Assembly: GCA_932294295.1 (NCBI GenBank)
Contig: OW028584.1
Location: 25,281,638-25,345,637 of the forward strand
Source of the DNA: Alitta virens
Lineage: Eukaryota; Annelida; Polychaeta; Phyllodocida; Nereididae
Length of the DNA stretch: 64,000 nucleotides
Direction of reading: 5' to 3'
Shown: piece by piece, positions 285-54,761 of the stretch
How positions within the stretch are numbered: the first letter of the stretch is position 1
Layout: the number at the start of each line of letters is the position of its first letter
Notes under the pieces: generated by a model
Told to the model about the DNA's origin: nothing
Databases searched by the model: none
What the model saw: the letters and a program-made list of their open reading frames with translations, nothing else
Position numbers and translations under genes: made by a program

Positions 285-950
<666 letters not shown>

Positions 951-4167: not shown

Positions 4168-6254
4168 CCCAGTGGGCGCAAGTCGTAAAACTGACATCTT
4201 TTTCTGGTCTCAAACTGGTCATGACGTCGGTGATCAATTTGAGACGTAAATAAGACGTACTTTTCAAGACGTCAAAATTACCAGGAAATATTACGTCTTA
4301 TCAACGTCATATTCTGGTGCTCAAGCAGACGTAATTATTTTACTTAATTTATACGTCTTTATTACGTCAATAAATTACGTCTAGAATACGTAATTTTTTT
4401 GCGTCTTATCAACATAATCTTGTGGTCATTAACATACCAATTCTCTAACCATGAAGGCTCATAAAATTTGCAAGTTACCATTTTTAGCAATTAATATATA
4501 ATGACTAAATTCACATTTAGTTTTACTTCATATAGTTAATTTATGATAGAAAAATACAATGTGACTTCCTTGTCAGAATATATATCAATGTATAGCAAAT
4601 TTATAACATAACCAAGGTGAAGTTTATAAATTGGGGTTAATGGGCTTATAATGTCACCCTGACCCCAGTGCACCCTATATTATAGCCTTGTGGTTATCAT
4701 TATCTGAACTGGCTGACCAATCAAAACCCTAGCAATCTTGAGCAGCTGCAGGACAGGTCACATCTTGTCAGTTAAGAATTTAAAATTCAGTAACTTTGGA
4801 GGGATACTAGTGAAGTTGGATTTAAACTTAATCTATGGAGGGATATATACCATTAAAATTCATCACATCATTGCATGGTAAGTGAAGTTTTTTCTAACCA
4901 CTGAAAATATGTTGCACATGCTGATTCATATATGATTTGGTGTTTATATAGTCTAATTTCTGAATATATATTCATTTCAGAGAACTATGGAACTATGGAC
5001 ACAATTTAGCTGAAGAATTATGATAGACATAAAAACACATTTCTTTAAAACTTACTTAATTGCAGCAGTCCAATTTATAGATTTACATAATATGTGCATG
5101 CATGCATCCAATAAATGTGAAGTATCCTATTTCACACAATATAATAAAGTGTTTTTATTAATTTTAAACTTGTGTGTGTTCTCTGTACATTAAATATGTC
5201 AAAAAATTGTAAGCAAAGTTTGTCTTAAAGACGTCGTCAGATGACATATTTTAGACGTCAGATATTGGTCAACTATGAGACATCTAAAAGACGTCATCTG
5301 ATGACATATTTTAGACGTCTCATATAAGACATCATTGAAGTTTGCATATGAGACTGTCACGTAATCCATAACTGAGACTTTGTGATGTCAAACAGTTTAT
5401 TAAAAAACTAAAAAATATTATTCATAACTTGTACATAGCTTGCATATTAGCTGAATGTACCATGGGTACAACTTGATTCACTTGCACAAATGAAGATAAC
5501 TGTTGAACAAACTTGCCCTGCATAAAACAAAAGCACAATCATCTTAATCATTGTATATTATAAGTACCAAAGCTCTATGTGTTAACATGGCTTACTATAG
5601 TGAAAGTTATATAATAATTATAACAGCAATAACTGTGTATAAAATAACAAATGGCTATTTAAAATAGACATTAGCCCCAAATTGATATTATACTAAAATT
5701 ATATAGTATATTTCCCTTGAACAGTAATGAACTTAATGTTATTAGTTAGAGAAATAACTATTACATTGAGCTATTACATTGAAATTTACACACAGCACTC
5801 CATGGCTGATAAAGCACATGGTCTCTCCAGCTGATAAGAGCACATGGTCAAAACACTTTGTAATAATACCTTAAATATCTCTCAAAATTAATATGCAATT
5901 AGAGTATAGCCTATAACTAATAACACCCAATATTAGGTACAATGAATACAATGAAAGAAATAACACTCACATGTATATAATTTAAACAGTTTCACCAGCA
6001 AAATACTTGGTGCCACATCTCATGTGGTCTTGGCAGAAGTGAACAGAGCTGGCCACCAAACTGGGTCAGTCCAGTGTGCAGCCAAATGGAACTAATCCAT
6101 CTGCTTGCAGCTTTGCTGCTCCAAAATTAGCCCAGCTGAAGTCAACTGTGGTTTAGCAGAGATTCTGCTGTGACAGAGACCAGTATGGGCTGGTCATGAG
6201 ACGTCTTTCAGAGACGTCTAAATTACGTCAATGAGACCACTTTTGCCCACTGGG
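4168..6254. mobile_element. Non-autonomous DNA transposon with CCCAGTGGGC termini
   Basis: The element starts with CCCAGTGGGC (4168-4177) and ends with the exact inverse GCCCACTGGG (6245-6254), 2087 bp in all. Both ends and the middle are rich in GACGTC/ACGTC motifs (4200-4400, 5225-5344, 6185-6240), arranged as sub-terminal repeats. No transposase ORF is present. An unfilled relative of the insertion site exists at 49500-49690, which supports real transposition. The family cannot be assigned from the ends alone, and no clean TSD is visible. Confidence 0.75.
5225..5344. repeat. 60-bp tandem duplication inside the CCCAGTGGGC element
   Basis: Two copies at an exact 60-bp period, each containing AAAGACGTC...GATGACATATTTTAGACGTC. 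They carry the GACGTC motifs that also pack the element's ends. Confidence 0.85.
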
Positions 6255-6490
6255 TTGTCTATAAGAAATATGAGACACTGGTGAATAACATCTTTCCAGT
6301 AATCACCGATTGCTGGGTATGATCAGTTTGGCTTTTTTAATAACGGATTCATTCAGCATCAATATTTTCCAGCACTTCGTATTGTTATCAACTGTGTGCA
6401 AAGGTGTTATATATAAATCAATTAAGGCAGCATTATTTACTACTGCCCTTACTTGTTATGCCTAAAAAAAGTCACACCCATTTAGTGTTA
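6255..6490. repeat. Right part of the dispersed repeat interrupted by the transposon
   Basis: TTGTCTAT, GGTGAATAACATC, CTTCCAG, and later AAGGCAGC...CTGCCCTTACTTGT match 49545-49735 in the same order. See the left part at 4085. Confidence 0.6.
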
Positions 6491-6619
6491 AAAAAATAGA
6501 AGGAAAAATAACAACAAAAAACCAAGAATCTTATGGGAATAATTTAATTTAATTCATTCAGTGACAACAGAGCTCTAGTACATTACAATTGATTACATAA
6601 AGGTCTGACACATCAATAA

Positions 6620-6939
6620 TGTAATGTTATTTTTATTGGTATTTTATATGTATTCCATGTTATATATTAATTAAAATAAGTCTTTAGTATTGTAAAATAA
6701 TATTATGTGAAACCAAAAGAGAATGGCTCTGTATGACTCTCTATTCCACCAGCCATCACCTAATTAGGGGGTGGCTTCCACAGGAAGCTGCTGGTGGCAT
6801 AGGAAGCCAAGGATCCAACCCTTTGATTGGCTGATCAACCAAAGATCAGCCCTGGGCTACCTCCAGACCAGTCAGTAAGGAGTTGGAGCTTGACCTATAC
6901 ACTGTATGTTGTTATGTGTTACAACTTATGAATAAAAGG
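6620..6939 (+). repeat. Left LTR, 3'-truncated
   Basis: 320 bp, starting TGTAATGTTA and matching 14134-14455 throughout. It stops after AATAAAAGG, where the right LTR continues for about 65 bp more. The break joins directly to RT coding sequence. Confidence 0.88.
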
Positions 6940-6941
6940 GT

Positions 6942-7935
6942 ACTAAAGATCTTCGGTTAATTACAGACTTTCGTCATCTTAATACCAAAATTATCAAAAG
7001 AAATTTGCCTTTTCCTCTCGTCAAAGAAGCCATGCAAGCTATTGGCGAAGCAAAGCCCAAAGTGCTGAGTGTCCTAGATTTGCAACAGGCATATCATTGC
7101 CTCAATTTGAGTCAAAGATGTCAACAATCTTGTGGAATTACTTTTTACTTTGGAGGGAAATCCTACCGGTATTTAAAATTACCAATGGGCTTGTCCGTAG
7201 TCATTTCAGGCACATATCAACTCGATTCTCGACTCAATTAATGCCAGGGAGTACTGCCTTATGATTATGGATGACCTGATTTTGTATTCACAATCCATTT
7301 CTGAACACCATCAACATGTTGACCTTATTTTGGCCACATTGAAAATTTCGCCTGCTAAGGCTAAATTGTTCCGATCACGAGTTGTTTACATGGGACATGA
7401 AATTGTGATTAACAAAGGTAAACAAGGAATTCGCCCATTGCGAGATAGAACTGAAGCTATTAGACAGCTTCCTGCCCCCACTACAAAAAAGACAGCTTAA
7501 AGGCTTTATTGGTAAGGTGTCATATTTATCAATGTATTTGCCAAAATTACAGATTTTGTTGCAGCCACTGCACAAAATATCAAGTAAGAAGGCTGATTTT
7601 GTTTGGTTACCGGAACACCAACAGGCTTATGATGCAATTTTAAAGCTGCTGGTCAAACCACCAATATTGTCATTGCCACGAAGTGATGGTCTTTTCCGGT
7701 TATACATGGATACTTCTCGTGTCGGCATAGGTGCCAACCTGTGGCAGATTCAAGAGGGCCAAGAAAGACTTTTGGCATACTTTTCTAAAGCTCTGCCGAA
7801 AGCTGCACAGCATTATGGCATTAGTGAACTTGAATTTACAGGAATTTCAATTGCAGTATCAGCTTTCAGACACTTGTTGAAGAATACAGCGTTTGAAGTG
7901 TATACAGACCCACATTATGAAATCAAAATCTAGAC
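6942..7935 (+). pseudogene. LTR-element pol: reverse transcriptase and RNase H (broken)
   Basis: The reading frame shows the RT palm motifs of Ty3/gypsy pol: an LITDFRHLN-type start, SVLDLQQAYH (first catalytic Asp), KLPMGL, then MIMDDLILYS (MDD catalytic pair at 7267-7275, intact). Stops or shifts occur near 7241 and 7500, so three frames are needed. RNase H follows (YMDTSRVGIGANLWQ, YFSKALPKAAQHYG, SELEFTGISIAVSAF) and stops at 7933. The conserved order and spacing make the identity secure. The 5' part, including protease, is missing because the left LTR abuts RT. It cannot make a working polyprotein. Confidence 0.85.
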
Positions 7936-39546: not shown

Positions 39547-41455
39547 TTAGGTCTAAATTCAAAATTACGACGTAATGGGAATTAATTGATAAATTAAAAA
39601 ACATCAGCATGAACATTACTTCCAAAAATGGTCACAAGGGGGGGGGGGCATCTTAATAACCGGCTTGGTATTTAATGAGGGTCAACTGTAATCACTTACA
39701 CTCTCATTCCAAGACATTAATATCACCTGTTCGGGTGTATTTCCTGCTAGGAAAATTACATTTTAGAAATATGATCACACCATCATCTCTTGCATACAAT
39801 TTACAATAATGAACACAAAAGCATTAAATACTGATCAAATTCTACGAAAAGCAAAAGAAAAAAAAAAAAACTTAAGATGGTATTACCACTAATTTGGTGG
39901 ACATAATCACACCCCACATGCGAGTCAAGCCAAATGTATGACTTTGAGCACGAAAACGAACCGAGGCCAAAGATGGTCTTTTACATTGTAGTTGACTAGG
40001 CGCAGAGACGTAATATTAATTTAAAAAATGGGCGGCGTTGACTTTGACTTTGCTTTTTGCGTCAAGTCACCGTCGTTAAAAACAGGCTGTGACTTGAGTA
40101 TCATGACAATCGCCGAGTTAGAGGTTGATGATTCTATATCATAGCAGTGTAATAATAAAGAACTTAATTGATTCAACCAGCTGATATTCCCCAGCTTATT
40201 TCACAAAAATGTCATTGTTGCAATCAAACTGTAGTATTCTAGTTCAATCGTTGTTGACCTCTTGATTCTCGTGGACAGAACCGGCATGCATGAGCAACGA
40301 TCTGTAAACTGTGGGGCCAAGTCGGGCCAGGCGTTTTTTTTTCGTCACAAAGCAAAGTCGTTAACTATTTTGTTGTGTATTTTATCACTAAATGTCCGTA
40401 ATAAGGCCATTATTAATGCATTCTTATGCCACGCCATTGCACTACGCTGGGCGCTTGGTACCAAAACTGCTGCTGATAGCGCGATTCGCAGGCCCTATTC
40501 AGATAAGCCTGTGACTTGTTAGGTCTGCGCTCCTGGTCTAATGACTTGTATGACATGAAAATACTTAACTTCACTTCTAGTCGACATTTTTCCAAAGATT
40601 CTGCTAGCTCAAAATGTGAAAATTGGCTTTGGGCAGTGGCGTAGCTACAGGAGGCACGTTCCCATATTATGGGGGGGGGGGGGAGGGGTGCACCCTAAAT
40701 ATTAGACTTTATAACATTCTGTGACCAGATGCAAGGATGCTGCAACCCAGCATCACAGCTCATCTGTTGCTTATTGGCTGGCTGCTGCCAAATAACATCA
40801 TGGAATATCCTGATGTGACTTCACTGGCTCACTAGAGGGTACTGTGGCATGACCAAAAGTTTAGGCAGAAGTATGACTTAAAATATGCCTTTTTAGGGTT
40901 TTAAAATTACGCAATGGCAGTGTTATTAGTGAAAGTTTGTTAACAAGATATATTCTAACAGATTTATGAAATTAAAAATATCCATTTTAGGGCACCTTTA
41001 AAGCACGCCATTAATGCATATTAATGATACATTTTACTGTTAGCATTTCAAAGAGAAGATATTTATGCTCTTTAAATGTCTATTAGATTATTAAAATAAA
41101 TTTTAATGAATCAATGAAATATTTTATATAGTATGATTTGGTCAAACCGCGGTAAATCGGGGAAAGTCAAGAATATTTTCATTTTGCATATTCAAATTTA
41201 TTTGGGCTTTTTGCGGAAAAGGTGGCAAAAAAATCAGAAGAACACAAGTGGCCCTGAATTCACATTTCAATACATTACAGCACCCCCCTGAAACTGATGA
41301 AATTAATCTGACTGTGGGGAAATAATATACAACCTATAATTCCTATGAAACTGCGATTCTGCTTTTTGTAGTCATTTAATTGCGATTCTACTTATTGTAG
41401 TTTTTTTTATTTCAAGGCCAAATTTGGCCCTAAAGCAATCTTTTTAATTTTTATG
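39547..41455. other. No gene seen; G runs and dispersed-repeat fragments
   Basis: Holds G homopolymers (about 39640-39648 and 40671-40684) and a GGGCAGTGGCGTAGCTAC phrase (about 40633-40650) that is common at transposon junctions in animal genomes. No ORF with recognisable similarity. Confidence 0.45.
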
Positions 41456-41742
41456 CCAGCGTGTAGCCCGTCAAAAAACCGCACATTTTGGTATATAGAT
41501 CATCTCTGTAGGTGCAACGGCCGCCGATATATTAACCCGCCGTGAACCGCTTTGAGCTTGATGGTGAAAATGACATACAAAGGCGGAGCCTATTTTCGTG
41601 CTGAGCTGGCAATCAACGATGACGTCACCGCCTGGTCCTATAAAAGCTGGCGGCGGCTGGCAGTTGTTCAGTGAGTTTTCTCTGCTATTTAGAAGAGTAT
41701 CCACGTCGTTGAAAATGGCATGTACGAAACAAACCACCAGAA
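41456..41742 (+). pseudogene. Truncated histone H3 copy: promoter, leader and first nine codons
   Basis: Matches 285-567 closely, including TGACGTCA (41619-41626) and TATAAAA (41639-41645). The ATG is at 41715. The coding part reads M-A-C-T-K-Q-T-T-R, so it shares Thr7 with the intact gene but has Arg2 changed to Cys. Similarity stops at 41742, exactly where LINE sequence begins. No further H3 sequence is present. It cannot make a histone, but the promoter elements look intact. Confidence 0.92.
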
Positions 41743-41792
41743 CTAGAGCCCCCTTTTTGGGACCTCCTGTCACCCAACATGGCATGTAAAAG

Positions 41793-42080
41793 AACTAAGG
41801 TAATAAAACCAGTTACTGCCATCTTTCCATTTCTCTAGCGAATACTATTTAACAATAGATGGCGCTTCCACCCAACTCACTATCGGCCACCTGTTAAATA
41901 AGGCATAAACCAAAATGACACAGCAGCTCTGCTATATACTGTTAAATCATGATGTATTAGATTAGGCAAAGATATTGCCAAATGGCACTAAAGTAAATAG
42001 GGGCTAAGGTATTAAAACCAGTCAACTAATTTGTAAAAATGCATATCCTGAATCATATGACTAAGGCAATAAAGCCAGTC
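41793..42080 (+). other. Three bulged hairpins in the LINE 5' region
   Basis: Each is 22 nt: outer 4-bp stem, 2-nt 5' bulge (AA), 3-bp inner stem, 6-nt loop. Hairpin 1 (41793-41814): outer AACT/AGTT, inner GGT/ACC, loop AATAAA. Hairpin 2 (42002-42023): outer GGCT/AGTC with one G-T wobble, inner GGT/ACC, loop ATTAAA. Hairpin 3 (42059-42080): outer GACT/AGTC, inner GGC/GCC, loop AATAAA. Paired changes preserve base pairing. Structure is predicted by eye. Confidence 0.65.
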
Positions 42081-42169
42081 ACCAAAATATCTTGGGGATA
42101 TACAAACCACCAGGGGGCCACCTGTTGCTTTTACATAGAAACACAATCAGCCATAACAGATCTTAATAG

Positions 42170-43070
42170 ATGAGACTCATATCACTAAACTGTAGAGCAG
42201 GCATTAATAATAAGGATAAGTTAAAGAAGCTAATATATTACCTGCAACAGCACTCCTGGCACATAGCACTTCTGCAGGAAACTTATAAAATTAATGCGAA
42301 AGCTTGGGAGAAACTTAGTAGTGCTCTAAAAGTAAAGATCTTACAGGACCCTAACACCCAAGGAAAGCCTGGCACAGGGACAGCTACTCTTATTAAAGAT
42401 AGTATATTACATAAAGTAGTGAGCCATAAGTTCCTAAATAATACTAGAACAATAAAAATAATAATAGAACAGGATAATCAAAAATATCATATACTAAACA
42501 CTTATATTCACACTAAAAGTAATGAAAAACATAAAGACTTCATAGCTCTAGATAATTATATTAAAACAATAGTAAATCATATAGTAATAGGAGGGGACCT
42601 CAATAGTGTAACAGAATCATCTCAAAGAACAAGCATAGTAGAAAATGCACGAGCTGATGAATGCTTGATTAATTTAATTAAAAATAATTACTTAATAAAT
42701 TTACCTTTATATTTTAAATTCTACATACCTACTTACATAGGACAGAGTAGCTCAGCCATGTTAGACCGCTTCATCTCATCTGATACTAGCTTTGTCAAAG
42801 AACTATAATTCATATATATGTCCATTTAGTGACCATCTAATGGTGACATTAGACATCTTTGATAGTGAATGTCAAAATGAGAACAGGAAACATAAAACTC
42901 ACTGGAAACTCAACACCAGTCTGCTAGAGGATATAAATGTAATAAATAGTTTAAGGGTATTATGGACAGATTGGAGTTTGATGAAAGTCAACTTCCAATC
43001 ACTACAGACATGGTGGGATAAGGGGAAAAAAAAAGATAAAGCAATACCTAATAGAGGTGGGAATAAATAA
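42170..43070 (+). pseudogene. LINE ORF2: AP-type endonuclease domain
   Basis: Motifs of the LINE endonuclease appear in order: SLNCRAG, LLQETY (catalytic Glu), VIGGDLNSV (GGDxN), SSAMLDRFIS. After a frameshift near 42806 comes SDHLMVTLDI, the SDH motif. The enzyme would nick target DNA to prime reverse transcription. The frameshift and the stop at 43070 disable it. Confidence 0.85.
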
Positions 43071-45170
43071 AGCTAGAAGAATAAGAAGTAGGGAAACTGC
43101 ACTAATAAATGAAATAGAGACTCAACTCAAGCAATCGAATCCACACATCAGAGAGATAAACAGTATGAAGGCAGAGCTGAATGACATAATGGACTACAAC
43201 ATAGAAGGGGCAAAAGTAAGATCATGACAGTTACAATTACCATCAGAAGAAAAAGGCTCGAAGAACTTCTTTAATCTCGAGATAAAGAACAACACGAAGG
43301 AAAGTATTACTACCTTGGTTAAAGACAATATTGAGTTATATAAGGAGGAGGTAAAGAATGAAATACATGATTTCTATACTAAGCTATACACTTTAGAAGG
43401 AAGTGACTCTGAAGCCACTAATTGTCTTCTAGAACACATAAAGGAAGCGGACTTGAATGAGCAACAGAAGATATCACTAAATAGATTCATTAGCACAGAT
43501 GAACTAAAATTAGCTCTGGGTAAAATGAAGAGCAACAAAACTCCAGGGAGTGATGGCCTCCCAATGGAATTCTACATCAAAACCTGGGATTTCATTGGGG
43601 AGGACCTCACTGAGATAGTAAATAACAATTCCTTGAAGGGGAAATGTCTAAAACACAGAAAGAAGCGATAATAAAGCTTCTATATAAGAAAGGTGACAGG
43701 AGACTTCTAAAAAACTGGCGACCTGTAAGCCTATTAAATGTAGACTATAAGCTACTGAGCTCTGCTCTGTCAAACCGGCTATCAAAAGTCTTGGATAGAA
43801 TAATATCTAATACACAAGGATGTGCAATAAAAGATAGATATATCTTTGAAAACCTCCGTATGATTGAGGACATGATCACAAGATTTGAATTTATGGATGA
43901 TAATCAAATATATAAAGGAGGAATTATCAAGGTCCTCGACCTTGAGAAGGCCTTTGACATGGGTGAAAACTTCACAAATTGGGTCAAACTGTTGTATACA
44001 AACATCACAACATGTATTCAAACCCCATATGGCTATACGGATCAAATACAGGTCACCAGGTCGGTTAGACAGGGGTGCCCCTTCGGCATGATGCTATTTA
44101 TAATATCAGAGCCGGTACTAAAGATGATAAATAATGATGTAAGATTAAAGGGAATAAGACTAGACAAGGATAAAGCAGTAAAAATATGCGCCTATGCAGA
44201 TGACACTACCCTTTTCCTACAAAACAGCAGGGAAGAGTCGATTTGCAGCGAGCTAATTAAGATTTATGAAAAGGCCTCAGGGGCCAAGTGTAATGAGGAA
44301 AAAACCAGTAAGCTACTCTTTGGGCAATATAGAAAAATGCAAAATATAACAAATCAAGACCCAATAGAAATATTGGGCATATGTTTTCACCATAATAAGA
44401 CCCAAAGAGTGGATATAAACTGGGAAGGTACAATTAATAAAATAAGAAGTAGCTTAAATAAATGGCGACATAGACATATGACTATGTTAGGCAAATCAAC
44501 CATAGTAAATGCTATGGTGATATCAAATACAGCCTATATTAACAGGATCATACCTGCCAACGCCAAACATATAAAAAAGATAGAAAAGCTGATAAATAAT
44601 TTTCTTATTAGCGCTAGGCCATTACTATATTCAAATAAACAACTGATCAGACCAGTGGCCGATGGGGGTTTCAACCTGCCAGATTTCCAGACAAAATGTA
44701 GATCCCAGCATTACATGTGGCTTCACCACTACATATCAACCAAAGAACATCCATGGAAGATATTATTTAAACAGCTAAGTGGTAACCTGCTGAATAAGTT
44801 CAATATAAGCGAGCAATGCAGACAGGGTCCTATGGTCCCCAATGTTGGTAGCACTTATAATAGTTTCAATAGAAAACCATGTGATAACCCCATTGCATGG
44901 CAAACAGTGGCCTTTAAGGCAATATACCTAGAAAATATCAAGTCGCTATACCAACCTTACTCCATAGAAACAATCTTAAAGACCCTTAACTGGAAAGGGA
45001 TATGGAGTAGATGGGCCAATAGACCTTTTAGTAACAAATACAAAGTACAGATGCATACAGTGATAACGGACCATTTTAATAAAATAAAATACTATAATAA
45101 GTCGCAAAATTGCCCGTTATGTGACTTCGCCTTTGTACAATCTCGTGACCACTCGTTCATAAATTGCTAG
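43071..45170 (+). pseudogene. LINE ORF2: reverse transcriptase
   Basis: 43315-43671 carries the pre-RT region (MKSNKTPGSDGLPMEFY). The long frame 43644-45170 carries the core: LKNWRPVSLLNVDYKL, KVLDLEKAFD, RQGCPFGMMLF, and KICAYADDTTLFL with an intact YADD pair. A run of about 20 residues after KAFD is missing compared with L1/Tx1 RTs, and there are frameshifts near 43300 and 43640. The C-terminus has a CCHC-like motif (CPLCDFAFVQSRDHSFINC), usual in L1/Tx1-group ORF2. Confidence 0.88.
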
Positions 45171-45218
45171 GGTGTACAGCCGCTCCATAGATACATATGC
45201 CAGCAGTGGGGACTAAAA

Positions 45219-45682
45219 TTGGAACCACATAAACTGTTTTATGAAGAGTATCCGAATGATAGATATAGAGTAGCCTTAAGCTACATATATACAATCATAA
45301 AATTCACCAAACTATGGAAAGGGAAATGGGAACACCCAATAGAAATGCAATCCTTCATTCCTTCAATAAAACCCTATCAAAGACATAACAATGTTCCCAA
45401 AACCGGTGTTTTTGTCGAGTGAACATATTAAAATGCACTCCAGACATGGTAAATAGAGCAAACATACTAGAATGTGCTCTATCAATAATAAAGGATACAC
45501 ACAAAAGATATGACACCACACAAATATCTTGCACACACAAGTATAATAAATGTAAATATAAACAGCCAAATGAGCATATACCAAAAACCTTGGGTGATGT
45601 TTACACATTTATAAATCTACTAAATATTTCACACTATCCTAAATTTAAAATGCACAACAACAAAACACCCAAGGGGCAATGA
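45219..45682 (+). pseudogene. LINE ORF2 C-terminal extension and 3' region
   Basis: Two further frames (45219-45422; 45419-45682) after the CCHC stop. The second matches the minus-strand copy at 51410-51096 (NILKC, KRANILKCAL against NRANILECAL, KPKTLGDVYT against IPKTLGDVYT), so the region is conserved between copies, but it may be conserved as RNA structure rather than protein. Confidence 0.6.
45417..45479 (+). other. Two bulged hairpins in the LINE 3' region
   Basis: 45417-45440: outer GAGT/ACTC, bulge GA, inner ACAT/ATGC (one mismatch), loop ATTAAA. 45456-45479: outer GAGC/GCTC (extendable to ATAGAGC/GCTCTAT), bulge AA, inner ACAT/ATGT, loop ACTAGA. Starts are 39 bp apart, as in the minus-strand copy. 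Confidence 0.65.
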
Positions 45683-45898
45683 TGAAGATATAGAGTAGGT
45701 ACTTAGAGCAACTGCCCCGGTGTCCAGCCTCGAATGGGATGAGAGTTTCCTCTCCCGACTGATGGAGGACACCCAAAAGGGTAGAAGAGTTGAGAAGACA
45801 GTATCCTTGATTTGAGGTAAACCAACAATGAAGCTCCTATTGAAAATGGGAAAACTCTAATCTGAGCCAAAAAAAAAAAAAAAAAAAAAACACCAGAA

Positions 45899-46257: not shown

Positions 46258-47411
46258 AATGGAGGTGCTTAGACTCAAGAAAGAGGTAAACAGTCACCAC
46301 TATCAATATAGAAGTAGTAAGGGATGCCAGGGTAGAAATAAATGAAATACTTGATGGCATAGATGCAAGAGGATGGCTAGGTGAAACATCTTGTTTGCAA
46401 CAAGTAACCAGAAATAAATTCAGGTGGTCCTGCATAAGCCAAAATGTGGCACAACAGATAGCCACAGAAATTTCTGACATAGACTTTTTTTGTTGGGGGA
46501 GACAAATGCCAAGTCACTTATGCCTCAAGGGCACTCACATACTTTCTATATGACACACCCTTTGAAATGGAAGACAATGATATTAAGGAAATATTCAGAT
46601 CATATGGGGACATTATAGGCATCAAAAGAACCACACATAGACAATGGGCCAATATTTACGATGGGAAACTAATTATACAGTTCCATAGCCTAACCAAAGA
46701 CCTGCCAGAGAGTATCCTATTAGGAAAATCTGGCAGAATAATCATTAGATTCCCTGGGGAAAAGGTTAAAAGGGTCAAATGTTATAAATGTGGGCAAATT
46801 GATGACCATAAACCAGAAGACTGTGGTCATGCTACCATATGCCACAATTGTAAGAAGGAAGGGCACAGGTACAGAGATTGCCCCCAAAATGTTAAAAACC
46901 AAATTAATGTAGCCCAAATAGAGGATATTTCACCAAAGCAACCCTCATATGCCTCAACTGTGGCAACAAAGATCGCAATAAATCCCCCAGTAATGAAAAA
47001 GGCTGTACTGGAAACCCCAAATTTGAGGCCTGAAACCCAGAGAGAGCATAATGTAGGGGATGTGACCACAATAAGAGACCAACATGAAAAATCAGACGCC
47101 CCAATAGCAACCTCGACCCCAATCAATGCGCTGACCCGGCACAGAGCAAGGGTAGAACATGGGCTGATAGGGAGTCATATGAAAATGTAACCACCTCCCC
47201 AAAGAGGCGGACAGTGAGCATTGTTCCATATAATAAAGTGAAAATTGACAACCTTTTCGACAGGGCAATGAAGGAAGTCGAAAAAATACACTCAAACCCC
47301 AATACTGAACTTCCAAAGCAGATAGGTGAAGTAAAAATAGGGAAATCTAAAACAAAAGAAAGACAAAGAAGTAGTAGTAGGAAAAGAGGAGATAGCCATA
47401 CCACCTTTTAA
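46258..47411 (+). pseudogene. LINE ORF1 with RNA-binding domain and two zinc knuckles
   Basis: Starts MEVLRLKKEV at 46258, then shifts frame several times. The open core (46567-47190) has an RRM-like segment (MEDNDIKEIFRSYGDIIGIK) followed by two CCHC knuckles (CYKCGQIDDHKPEDC; CHNCKKEGHRYRDC). A second part (47214-47411) is basic and Ser/Arg-rich at its end (RQRSSSRKRGD). ORF1 proteins coat LINE RNA. Its position directly behind an ORF2-only copy suggests a head-to-tail pair of partial copies. At least two frameshifts. Confidence 0.8.
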
Positions 47412-50861: not shown

Positions 50862-51095
50862 CTGCAGAAAAGGAAAAGAACGTATAATGGTTCATTTTTT
50901 TTTTTCTTTTTTTTTTTTTTTTGGCTCAGATTAGAGTTTTCATTATTCAATAGGAGCTTCATTGTTGGTTTTCCTTAAATCAAGGATACTGTCTTCCCAA
51001 CTCTTCTACCCCTTTTGTGTCCTCCATCAGTCGGGAGAGGAAAATCTCATCCCTTTCGAGGCTGGACACTAGGGCAGTTGCTCTAAGTACTTACT

Positions 51096-51430
51096 CTATA
51101 GCTTCTTCGTTGCCCCTTGGGTGTTTTGTTGTGCATCTTTAAATTTAGGATAGTGCGAGTTAGTTAGTAACTTTATAAGTGTGTAAACATCACCCAAGGT
51201 TTTTGGTTTTTGCTCATTTGGTTGTTTATATTTATATTTACAATACTTGTATGTGAAAGATATTTTTGTGATGTAATATCTTTTGTGTGTATCTTTTCTT
51301 TTTAACAGAGCACATTTTAATATGTTTGCTCTTTTTACCATGTCCAGAATGCATTTTAATATGTTCACTCGACAAAAACCGGTTTTTATTGTATTTACCT
51401 CAGAGTACATTTTATTATGTTTACTCTGTT
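51096..51430 (-). pseudogene. 3' region homologous to the LINE ORF2 end, with three hairpins
   Basis: Minus-strand hairpins: 51426-51403 (outer GAGT/ACTC, bulge AA, inner ACAT/ATGT, loop AATAAA), 51370-51347 (outer GAGT/ATTC with a G-T wobble, bulge GA, loop ATTAAA) and 51331-51308 (outer GAGC/GCTC, bulge AA, inner ACAT/ATGT, loop ATTAAA). The last two keep the 39-bp spacing of the plus-strand LINE. The 104-codon ORF here is homologous to 45419-45682. Confidence 0.65.
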
Positions 51431-51480
51431 TACCAACCTTTTCTTGGGTACATTTTATTCATCATCAGGACTCTTATTGT

Positions 51481-52757
51481 TTATTGTTTATTCCAAAGGA
51501 TTTCGGGAATCTTTCTCTTATTATCTTCTCTTGTTGTTCTATATTTATCTTGATTATCCCAAAGAACTCTAATTTCCATCAGGATTTGTCCGAGTTCATT
51601 ATGTCCCAGACCTTTCTTGCCCACAGCCCAAAACTCATCTGTAGTGTCTTCCGACAAACTATGTACTTTATTCTCCAGAAGGAAGAAACGGAAGGGCGTA
51701 TCTTGGTCCATTTTGGACATAAGGATATATTTCATAATGTCTCGTTTAATGGAATGCCAATGCTGTTGATTGGTAATACATATCCTGGGTGATGCTGATT
51801 TGGCCCCTCTTCCGGTTCTTTCCTTCTGGATCACTCGGCACATAGTTATATCGCCACTGTGGGCTGCCTTTGCATATTGATATGCCGATTCTGATGTGGT
51901 GAATTCCTTTCCAAAGATTGACAATTTGGTGTGGGTAAAGTTTGAGAGGATACTATTTTCTCCTTTGAAAAAAATTGTTCTGTTTAGTACTCTTAAGGAT
52001 GGTCTACAATTTAGGTTGGGGGGCAAAATGATTACCCTCGTACTTACCCTGAATCTGTTCATGTAGGTTATGGTATTCCTTAGGTCCCTGTAGATGATAT
52101 TTAGGATTCCTATTGCTAGCCTCTCTTTTCCACTGGTTGACAGGTGGAGGCCATCTTGCAGGAAGGCATCTTCTACTAACTTCCTTCCTTCCGGTGTGTT
52201 GCATGTTTCAACTTTATATGGATTCTTGTATAGAAACCCCGGGTGTCTTTGCGCTGCCTTTTTCAATTCCATGTTTATATACTCTCTTGACTCTGTCTTG
52301 GGATTCTGCCTTAAAAGGTCCCACCCAGTGTCCTGTGGCCTAATTCTGATTGCTAGGATTATGATGTATGTGTAAGGATAATGCCTTCTCAGGCCAATAC
52401 ACATAGTTTCCAGGTGGAACCTTATGTCGGTGATGTTTTTACCGACATTGTTTGTTCCTATTAGTATTACTATGGCTTCTGGTACTTTATCTTCCTCTTC
52501 CGATGCATCAGGATCATGGCTATACCTTCTTGCTAATTCCTCTATTTTTAAGCCTGAGGTTGCAATTGAGGTCGATCCGGATATTGGTGTCTAACCATTG
52601 AGTCCCCTTCTATCATTATGTTTATTCCATTAAACATTTTGTTCATGTTTGCAAGGGTTGGGTTTTTTACTGCCATGTTGCTTTTCCATTTGAAGACTGA
52701 TGTTCTGCTTGCTCTGTTCTTATGCAGGTATTGGGGGCCCTTGCCAACTCGGTCCAT
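51481..52757 (-). pseudogene. SGNH hydrolase fused to NADAR-type N-glycosidase domain
   Basis: Two frames joined by one shift near 52585. N-terminal part: an SGNH/GDSL hydrolase with INIMIEGDSMV (nucleophile Ser), IVILIGTNNVG (block III Asn) and DGLHLSTSGKERL (catalytic Asp and His), so all key residues are present. C-terminal part: a NADAR/YbiA-type domain (ILSNFTHTKLSIFGKEFTTS, then SAYQYAKA, ERTGRG, EFWAVGKKGLGHNELGQIL, LMEIR), matching that family end to end. SGNH esterase domains occur in ORF1 of some CR1 LINEs; NADAR enzymes cut N-glycosidic bonds, with reports of removing ADP-ribose from guanine (family knowledge). I know of no described LINE with this fusion. The 307-codon second frame is open throughout, so decay is slight. 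Confidence 0.78.
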
Positions 52758-52883
52758 TCTTTTGATGTTAGTACTTTATGAGATGGTAGCTCTAAGAAAT
52801 GATCAAAAAGATGGGGATAGTTGTATTTTGAGTACATTTTATTATGGTTCATTTGAACAATTGGGGGGCTTGGTGGAATTGTA

Positions 52884-53691: not shown

Positions 53692-54225
53692 GATTGTTGG
53701 TCCTGTCGTCTAAGGTGAATGTCATCAATTGGTCGAGTCGTCAAAAAAAAAGTTGACCCGTCTAAAGAGCTGGTTCACTCGTCAAAAATGTTGGTTAACT
53801 CGTCAAAATTAGTCAAGTCGACAATAATCCTGGTTAATTCATCAACAGATAGCTGTTGAGTTGTGAAGTGTCATGCACATGCCTTGTTGAGGTGTTCTAG
53901 ATATAAGAAAAATATGAAAGTACTACTCAACACACACACACACATATATATATATTTATATATATATGAATAAAAAAAAATACTGAGTTGGCCGTTTTGG
54001 TCGATTGGCCGTTATGGGGGGTGGCCGTTACATTGCAATTAACTAATGAAAGCTTTAATCGTGAACAGTGTTAGGTATTTTTATTTTTGACGACTTTACT
54101 ACATATTGACGACTTTACCAGGCCTTTTGACGGCTTTACTAGGCCTGTGGACGGCTTAACTATTTTTAGTACGAAGGGACCAATTGACGGCGGGACCTTT
54201 TGACGGCATGACTGTAGACCCACGG
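53692..54225. repeat. 534-bp unit, first copy of a tandem foldback element
   Basis: Left side holds CTCGTCAAAA-type sub-repeats; right side holds the inverse TTTTGACGRC sub-repeats (TTTTGACGACTTTAC, TTGACGACTTTACC, TTTTGACGGCTTTAC). Contains (CA)n(TA)n near 53933. Repeated at 54226-54761. Confidence 0.92.
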
Positions 54226-54761
54226 GATTGTTGGTCCTGTCGTCTAAGGTGAATGTCATCAATTGGTCGAGTCGTCAAAAAAAAAGTTGACCCGTCTAAA
54301 GAGCTGGTTCACTCGTCAAAAATGTTGGTTAACTCGTCAAAATTAGTCAATTCGACAATAATCCTGGTTAATTCATCAACAGATAGCTGTTGAGTTGTGA
54401 AGTGTCATGCACATGCCTTGTTGAGGTGTTCTAGATATAAGAAAAATATGAAAGTACTACTCAACACACACACACACATATATATATATTTATATATATA
54501 TATGAATAAAAAAAAATACTGAGTTGGCCGTTTTGGTCGATTGGCCGTTATGGGGGGTGGCCGTTACATTGCAATTAACTAATGAAAGCTTTAATCGTGA
54601 ACAGTGTTAGGTATTTTTATTTTTGACGACTTTACTACATATTGACGACTTTACCAGGCCTTTTGACGGCTTTACTAGGCCTTTGGATGGCTTAACTATT
54701 TTTAGTACGAAGGGACCAATTGACGGCGGGACCTTTTGACGGCATGACTGTAGACCCACGG
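54226..54761. repeat. 534-bp unit, second copy
   Basis: Nearly identical to the first copy (536 bp; the TA tract is 2 bp longer, plus single-base changes such as CTTTGGATGG for CTGTGGACGG). A recent tandem duplication. Confidence 0.92.

Follow-up and report, generated by a model that had tools for sequence, protein, structure and literature searches.

A LINE of the polychaete Alitta virens with a third open reading frame that joins an SGNH hydrolase to a NADAR domain

A stretch of 64,000 nucleotides from chromosome 12 of Alitta virens (positions 25281638-25345637; hereafter called the window) carries on its minus strand the end of a long interspersed nuclear element (LINE), in which an SGNH hydrolase domain is fused to a NADAR domain. 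By comparing this copy with its relatives elsewhere in the genome, we found that the fusion is the third open reading frame (ORF) of the LINE, and is neither an ORF1 nor a host gene. We are nearly certain that the element has three ORFs, wherein ORF1 encodes a CCHC protein with an RRM-like region, ORF2 encodes an apurinic/apyrimidinic-type endonuclease (APE) and a reverse transcriptase (RT), and ORF3 encodes the SGNH-NADAR fusion downstream of the RT. The complete statement, which adds to this anatomy a mechanism proposed for ORF3, leans on the anatomy and has in our judgment an even chance of being right as a whole. All genome-wide searches covered the 671-Mb A. virens assembly of 23 contigs.

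The placement of the fusion was established from the loci at which it recurs. The genome holds 112 matches to the fusion, 14 of them near full length (the window copy included), and 20 loci were read from among these matches. An RT match lies upstream of ORF3 on the same strand at 16 of the 20 loci, at a distance from the ORF3 match of 501-564 bp in 15 cases and of 1,002 bp in locus L014, with the limitation that L012, L013 and L016 are near-identical neighbours and so are not independent in this count. A partial RT precedes ORF3 at L026, and no RT match was found at L021, L022 and L027, whose alignments to the full-length element L009 start late. Both APE and RT are present upstream at six of the 20 loci, a piece of APE is also found at L010, and the CCHC-type ORF1 was found upstream at five of the nine loci that were extended in the 5′ direction. 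Every one of the 20 loci ends in the LINE 3′ tail. Viewed from the other end, a genome search with this tail gave 37 matches. Of these, 22 are longer than 400 bases (the 15 shorter ones are excluded from this count), and an ORF3 match occurs within 143 bp upstream of 19 of the 22 long tails. An earlier note on the window, made from its letters, had set the fusion beside the esterase domains of some LINE ORF1s; it is instead an ORF3 located downstream of ORF2.

The architecture is most completely represented by L009, a full-length copy of approximately 7.08 kb that lies between 17-bp target-site duplications (TSDs). Its parts, numbered on a 7,081-bp stretch whose first 4 bases belong to the TSD, are:

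377-1609, ORF1, with a zinc knuckle match (2.5e-4) and an RRM match below the cut-off (0.0015)
from 2479, APE of ORF2
to 5086, RT frame of ORF2
5201-6499, ORF3 frame, followed by the 3′ untranslated region (UTR)

There is a frame change between the APE and RT portions of L009 ORF2, and thus this copy, like that in the window, is not intact.

That the element is a LINE follows from the APE and RT located upstream on the same strand, and from its 5′ truncations, poly(A) and TSDs. When the RT of the L009 family is compared with RTs of solved structure, human L1 ORF2p is the best match (3e-43) and R2 is matched at 4.8e-19; within this set of solved structures, the sequence comparison assigns the element to the L1 superfamily. 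The label Tx1 is one that we presume for it. Exact TSDs of 11-17 bp at differing sites flank seven of the 22 sequences scanned, the 5′ ends vary among copies, and poly(A) is present in both the window copy and L009. Judged from these sequences, the TSDs, poly(A) and 5′ truncations mark the family as one that has been mobile.

The copy in the window aligns to L009 positions 5126 to 7078 at 97% identity. Its features, all on the minus strand, are:

50898..52839, minus, 5′-truncated LINE copy comprising the end of the ORF2-ORF3 spacer, ORF3 (SGNH-NADAR), 3′ UTR and poly(A), 97% identical to the L009 element
52840..52854, minus, 5′ TSD, matching at 14 of 15 positions and exact over 11
50883..50897, minus, 3′ TSD, beyond the poly(A)
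52551..52775, minus, N-terminal part of ORF3, in a second frame, with ATG at 52757 and SGNH block I (GDS) at 52607-52599
51481..52590, minus, main open part of ORF3 (369 codons and a stop)
52123..52569, minus, SGNH hydrolase domain, blocks II-V (GTNN, DGLHLS), from Pfam and alignment/profile comparison
51568..51960, minus, NADAR (YbiA-type) domain, from Pfam, PDB and profile matches
51308..51426, minus, 24-nt hairpin-like repeat (GAG..CAT..ATG..CTC), present three times in the 3′ UTR
50901..51386, minus, 3′ tail common to a plus-strand LINE and to other family copies

What the window contains, then, is a LINE insertion that is 5′-truncated, frame-shifted and poly(A)-ended, with a TSD matching at 14 of 15 bp. 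The earlier note had described a single minus-strand ORF from 51481 to 52757 with both domains and all SGNH landmarks. Both domains are confirmed by Pfam and PDB matches, and GTNN and DGLH do lie in the main frame. The single ORF is ruled out by many stops in the frame that begins at 52757 and by a switch of frame near 52587, which leaves GDS in another frame. A tblastn comparison of P0002, one of the public relatives discussed below, aligns the two frame pieces end to end, indicating that the window copy was frameshifted inside the SGNH domain. The 3′ end said to be common with an L1/Tx1-like LINE is also real, as the tail at 51386..50901 is 89% identical over 494 columns to positions 45399..45890 of the plus-strand LINE.

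Our first reading, formed from the window alone, was that this copy is a half-LINE, an ORF1-only parasite of the plus-strand LINE, since there the 3′ tail comes after the fusion ORF without an intervening RT, and a TSD is present. This reading was overturned by the RT found upstream of the fusion in 16 of the 20 loci, which makes the window copy simply a truncated one, and we now give the half-LINE next to no chance of being correct.

The domain assignments in ORF3 are supported by several types of comparison. The open stretch 52590..51484 matches Pfam NADAR at 4.4e-18 (66.5 bits, with a cut-off of 35.1) and YbiA in the PDB at 4.3e-9, in agreement with the NADAR/YbiA-like domain noticed earlier, and it matches Pfam Lipase_GDSL_2 at 1.3e-6 (29.4 bits, under the cut-off of 32.9). 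Five public proteins contain both SGNH and NADAR domains, and their identity to the window fusion is 37-38% for P0001 and P0002 and 34-36% for P0003-P0005. In an alignment of these five with the window fusion (A3, six members), GDSM occurs in all five members that cover the site, and no member departs from GTN, DGLHLS or the NADAR residues Glu, Lys, second Glu and Trp. The A3 profile matches YbiA at 1.9e-16, a bacterial PAF-hydrolase-like protein at 3.9e-9, and the ZfL2-1 ORF1p esterase (4c1b) at 3.6e-7 among PDB entries. The predicted model of P0003 (predicted local distance difference test score, pLDDT, of 74) matches structures of the PAF-acetylhydrolase type as well as YbiA and 8bau, a NADAR with bound ADP-ribose, and that of P0002 (pLDDT 65) gives similar, weaker matches. 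The five outside proteins with both domains, together with the 14 near-full-length matches among 112 in the genome, argue that the fusion is not a product of chance.

The same residues are retained within A. virens. GDSM, GTNN and DGLHLS are present in all 12 open ORF3 copies, as are the Glu and Lys of the first NADAR motif, and the second motif is present in 11 of the 12. The family thus has SGNH blocks I (GDS), II (G), III (GTN) and V (DxxH), with block I of the window copy out of frame, and the fold and the Glu, Lys, second Glu and Trp residues place the other half in the YbiA family of the NADAR superfamily. The spacing of seven residues between Glu and Lys and the Glu..Trp motif fit the NADAR residues that have been described (PMC11543638). 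A tblastn search of IMG/VR and GTDB genomes, which hold few animal sequences, returned no relatives. A further protein, P0006 (379 amino acids), ends in a NADAR domain (1.6e-25) behind an N-terminal half that to our eye may be of the L1 ORF1 type.

We next consider whether selection has acted on ORF3. The input consisted of the 12 of 20 loci with frames of at least 400 codons (L015 and L022-L028 were dropped as broken or short), and the pair table holds 10 of these loci in 45 pairs, L012 and L016 being omitted as near-duplicates of L013. From the distances we formed four groups, namely L009; L010, L011, L013, L014 and L017; L018-L020; and L021. The ratio of nonsynonymous to synonymous divergence (dN/dS) between groups is 0.06-0.14 in all 29 measurable pairs, with 3 more pairs saturated in dS, a sign of the purifying selection across copies that the earlier note had suggested looking for. 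When five pairs are examined by domain, the SGNH portion yields 0.06-0.09 (four measurable) and the NADAR portion 0.05-0.18, and these values indicate purifying selection on both halves of ORF3. For the RT (six loci, 464-480 codons), the 11 between-group pairs have a dN/dS of 0.07-0.16 and the four within-group pairs one of 0.08-0.42. We conclude from the similar values that, as these lineages spread, the fusion was roughly as necessary to them as the RT.

These data also bear on the rival view that SGNH-NADAR belongs to the host and contributes nothing to retrotransposition, LINEs having merely acquired it or inserted next to it. NADAR homologues are indeed found in several eukaryotic groups outside chordates (PMC11543638), with nematode SNA-3 as one example, and Pfam and PDB matches cannot tell origin. 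However, all 20 fusion loci that were read end in the LINE 3′ tail, 16 have RT upstream, several have TSDs, which lie at differing sites, and ORF3 is constrained in a manner similar to the RT. We therefore consider a host gene very improbable, including the independent gene in which a LINE merely landed that the earlier note had raised as an alternative.

Each half of the fusion has some precedent in mobile elements. A paper of 2025 (PMC12477816) reports that Tx1 LINEs of Crassostrea gigas encode YbiA-family NADAR domains in ORF1, and it also describes Ectocarpus Gypsy elements with a NADAR. The earlier supposition that a NADAR partner was undescribed is thus superseded for NADAR itself, and it survives for the pair, as neither an SGNH-NADAR retroelement nor a comparable LINE ORF3 was found in the open-licence literature among the matches listed, and the accessible portions of PMC11203168 and PMC6338049 make no mention of such a pair. 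The oyster and Ectocarpus elements resemble ours in having a YbiA-type NADAR in a retrotransposon protein, once in a Tx1 LINE, whereas the A. virens NADAR is fused to SGNH in an ORF that follows the RT; the word ‘esterase’ has no occurrence in the main text of PMC12477816.

Similarly, type IV esterase ORF1 proteins are known from CR1, L2 and RTEX LINEs, such as zebrafish ZfL2-1 (PMC3905857, PMC4120745). The likeness is a LINE-encoded SGNH hydrolase, reflected in the match of the A3 profile to the ZfL2-1 structure. However, the esterase of those elements resides in ORF1 upstream of the RT, and NADAR does not occur in the accessible text of PMC4120745. Our element falls outside this class, since its SGNH-NADAR protein is encoded downstream of the RT and its ORF1 encodes a CCHC protein. 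The GDSL ORF3 of bdelloid rotifer long terminal repeat (LTR) retrotransposons and Athena elements (PMC5408684) is likewise an SGNH/GDSL enzyme encoded by a third ORF after pol. Those carriers are LTR or Penelope-like elements, NADAR does not occur in the accessible text on them, and within the genome their ORF3 did not deviate significantly from neutral evolution, whereas the carrier in A. virens is an APE-RT LINE. Finally, the YbiA and oomycete NADARs (2b3w, 8bau) share with ORF3 the fold, the Glu and Lys seven residues apart, and the Glu..Trp motif (PMC11543638), but those proteins are cellular enzymes, and the Glu-to-Trp stretch of ORF3 is one residue shorter.

NADARs, some of them from the YbiA family, hydrolyse ADP-ribosyl-guanine, with Glu and Lys being essential (PMC11543638, PMC11125620). 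We propose that the ORF3 protein would join the LINE ribonucleoprotein, where the SGNH half would bind or cut lipid and in this way keep the particle attached to membranes, a role already suggested for the esterase of ZfL2-1 ORF1. The NADAR half would remove ADP-ribose from guanines of LINE RNA or cDNA, and this action would counter ADP-ribosylation by the host. The residues of ORF3 fit such a removal of ADP-ribose, which is a putative activity of the protein. The mechanism as proposed, a membrane-held particle with a NADAR that erases ADP-ribose from LINE nucleic acid, is a possibility to which we assign somewhat less than an even chance.

Two other roles for the NADAR domain can be weighed against the same residues and the same literature. 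The domain could be a binding module rather than a hydrolase, and could link LINE RNA with the cap-binding complex or other nuclear RNA factors, perhaps in the manner of nematode SNA-3, whose first NADAR domain does not conserve the catalytic residues. We find this unlikely, given that mutating the homologues of the catalytic residues impairs SNA-3 function and that the active-site Glu, Lys, second Glu and Trp are invariant throughout A3. Alternatively, the domain might clear metabolites, a role that recalls the action of bacterial and plant NADARs on riboflavin intermediates (PMC11543638) and the proposal that viral NADARs prefer soluble ADP-ribose derivatives or RNA-processing by-products (PMC9503650). 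Yet a eukaryotic NADAR hydrolyses ADP-ribosyl-guanine (PMC11543638) and macromolecular targets are favoured for the NADARs of animal RNA viruses (PMC9503650). We consider a metabolic role unlikely.

NADAR domains accompanied by an SGNH-like part also occur in two other LINE groups of this genome, each of which is represented by one read locus and a table of genome matches:

C14:5230300-5235000, minus, L039, a 609-amino-acid open frame followed by the endonuclease ORF
C2:2391800-2396300, L038, a 549-amino-acid open frame that overlaps the endonuclease open frame

In both groups, the NADAR and SGNH-like part lie in the ORF before the endonuclease. The L039 frame comprises a PHD finger (PHF23, 3.7e-6), an SGNH-like part, NADAR (3.6e-21) and two CCHC knuckles, and the fusion-family profile is collinear with it through SGNH and NADAR (290 columns, E 2.6e-26, probability 99.7). 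Both domains are spanned by 20 of the 82 genome matches to the L039 ORF (matches that begin no later than residue 231 and end no earlier than 490), and relatives in the genome are 28-98% identical over parts or the whole. The L038 frame has the domains in the order NADAR (3e-25) and then the SGNH-like part. Eleven of the 84 genome matches to this ORF (L038 included) are full-length, 99-100% identical and open, and so the L038 group is probably young. A PDB search with the SGNH-like part of L038 returned only unrelated designed proteins, and the SGNH assignment in this group is tentative.

A bolder hypothesis, which we consider rather doubtful at present, is that SGNH plus NADAR recurs among annelid LINEs as a counter-defence module, as ORF3 in the L1-type element and within a pre-endonuclease ORF in two other groups (once in swapped order), because LINE RNA or cDNA is tagged with ADP-ribose by the host. 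If true, this would imply an undescribed form of immunity against retroelements in animals that is based on ADP-ribosylation, and a module that moves between LINE groups. Accessory enzymes that are strongly selected in selfish elements point to a host process that must be overcome, and the conservation of ORF3 could be the trace of a conflict, not seen until now, in which jumping genes face an ADP-ribose-based defence. Because NADARs erase guanine ADP-ribose and are kept in LINE proteins, there is a testable case that animals ADP-ribosylate the nucleic acid of retroelements. The genome also shows that a LINE can encode an enzyme in a third ORF downstream of its RT, and it has an SGNH/NADAR pair in several LINE groups, once reversed.

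Several observations count against the anatomy or the function that we favour. Three of the 22 long tails have no ORF3 match (the plus-strand LINE of the window and two unread places), and 15 of the 22 sequences scanned for TSDs have an exact duplication of at most 9 bp or none, including the nearly full-length L013 and L019. The choice of 12 copies by their open frames biases the ORF3 dN/dS low, and in the 13 pairs of close copies within groups this ratio is higher, at 0.13-0.47, which is what decay of the copies would be expected to produce. Moreover, dS between L009 and L019 or L020 is 1.04 and 1.23 for ORF3 and 0.54 and 0.77 for the RT (1.6-1.9 times), and thus the two ORFs may not share one history; recombination between lineages may explain this gap. 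The second catalytic Glu of NADAR is replaced by Gln in L021. The support for ORF3 function consists of sequence comparison and predicted models, NADARs also act in riboflavin metabolism (PMC11543638), E. coli YbiA does not protect against two guanine ADP-ribosylating toxins (PMC11125620), and translation of the 3′-distal ORF3 is unexplained. As for the two additional groups, the SGNH part is weakly matched by single-sequence Pfam search in L039 (0.003, below the cut-off), and in L038 by Pfam (0.0013, below the cut-off) and hhalign (5e-4, probability only 31%), and the Asn of SGNH block III is not evident in either group.

The window includes a second copy of the same LINE family that lacks ORF3, and both copies carry the hairpin-like repeats:

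41743..45886, plus, 5′-truncated LINE copy with ORF2 remnants and without ORF3
41735-41742 and 45891-45898, candidate 8-bp TSD of this copy (CACCAGAA)
42170..42805, plus, APE endonuclease part of ORF2 (Exo_endo_phos 7.8e-10)
43626..45167, plus, RT part of ORF2 (RVT_1 4.6e-19)
45408..45440, plus, junction of the missing ORF3, matching both repeats that flank ORF3 in L009
51308-51426 (minus) and 45417-45479 (plus), sites of the hairpin-like repeat

The sequence CACCAGAA is short enough to be a chance match, and it sits exactly at both boundaries of the LINE. The plus-strand copy aligns to L009 until position 5146 and resumes at 6604, and since its junction matches both of the repeats that flank ORF3, the absence of ORF3 is best read as a deletion between repeats. 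Loss would be likelier than ancestral absence because 19 of 22 tails carry ORF3.

The repeat itself (24 nt, GAGTGAACATAATAAAATGTACTC and variants) precedes ORF3 at 17 of the 20 loci, and as many as three copies of it follow ORF3. Pairing at positions 4 and 5 of the stem is retained in 17 of 18 variants, with T-A, C-G, G-C, A-T and wobble versions, and the unit is a possible binding site for a protein of the element. We rejected the idea that the ORF2 stop and the ORF3 start are coupled in the hairpin, as the L009 ORF2 stop is ~33 nt upstream of the hairpin and the hairpin ATG is out of the ORF3 frame; in L018 an open frame does run through the hairpin. In the 15 of 20 loci where both were found, an ORF3 ATG pattern lies 89-99 nt past the hairpin start. 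An Rfam scan of the window gave nothing at gathering scores.

The 5′ end of the LINE resembles the leader of histone H3. The first 57 nt of L009 past its TSD (positions 5-61) agree at 52 of 57 positions with the start region of an H3 gene in the window (495-551). The starts of L024 and L013 fall close to this H3-like start of L009, and that of L019 slightly later. The plus-strand LINE directly adjoins an H3 promoter and start fragment (window 41450-41742). Approximately 600 bp past this LINE there is a CCHC ORF (window 46483-47187, plus) that is 40% identical to the family ORF1, and a 90% identical CCHC ORF lies past the 3′ end of L026. A tandem duplication of ~535 bp (99% identity) occupies window positions 53692-54225 and 54226-54761. 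Chromosome 12 holds 12 of the 22 long 3′ tails, 11 of which are located within 24.68-25.53 Mb, and this cluster arose in part by apparent segmental duplication (L012, L013 and L016).
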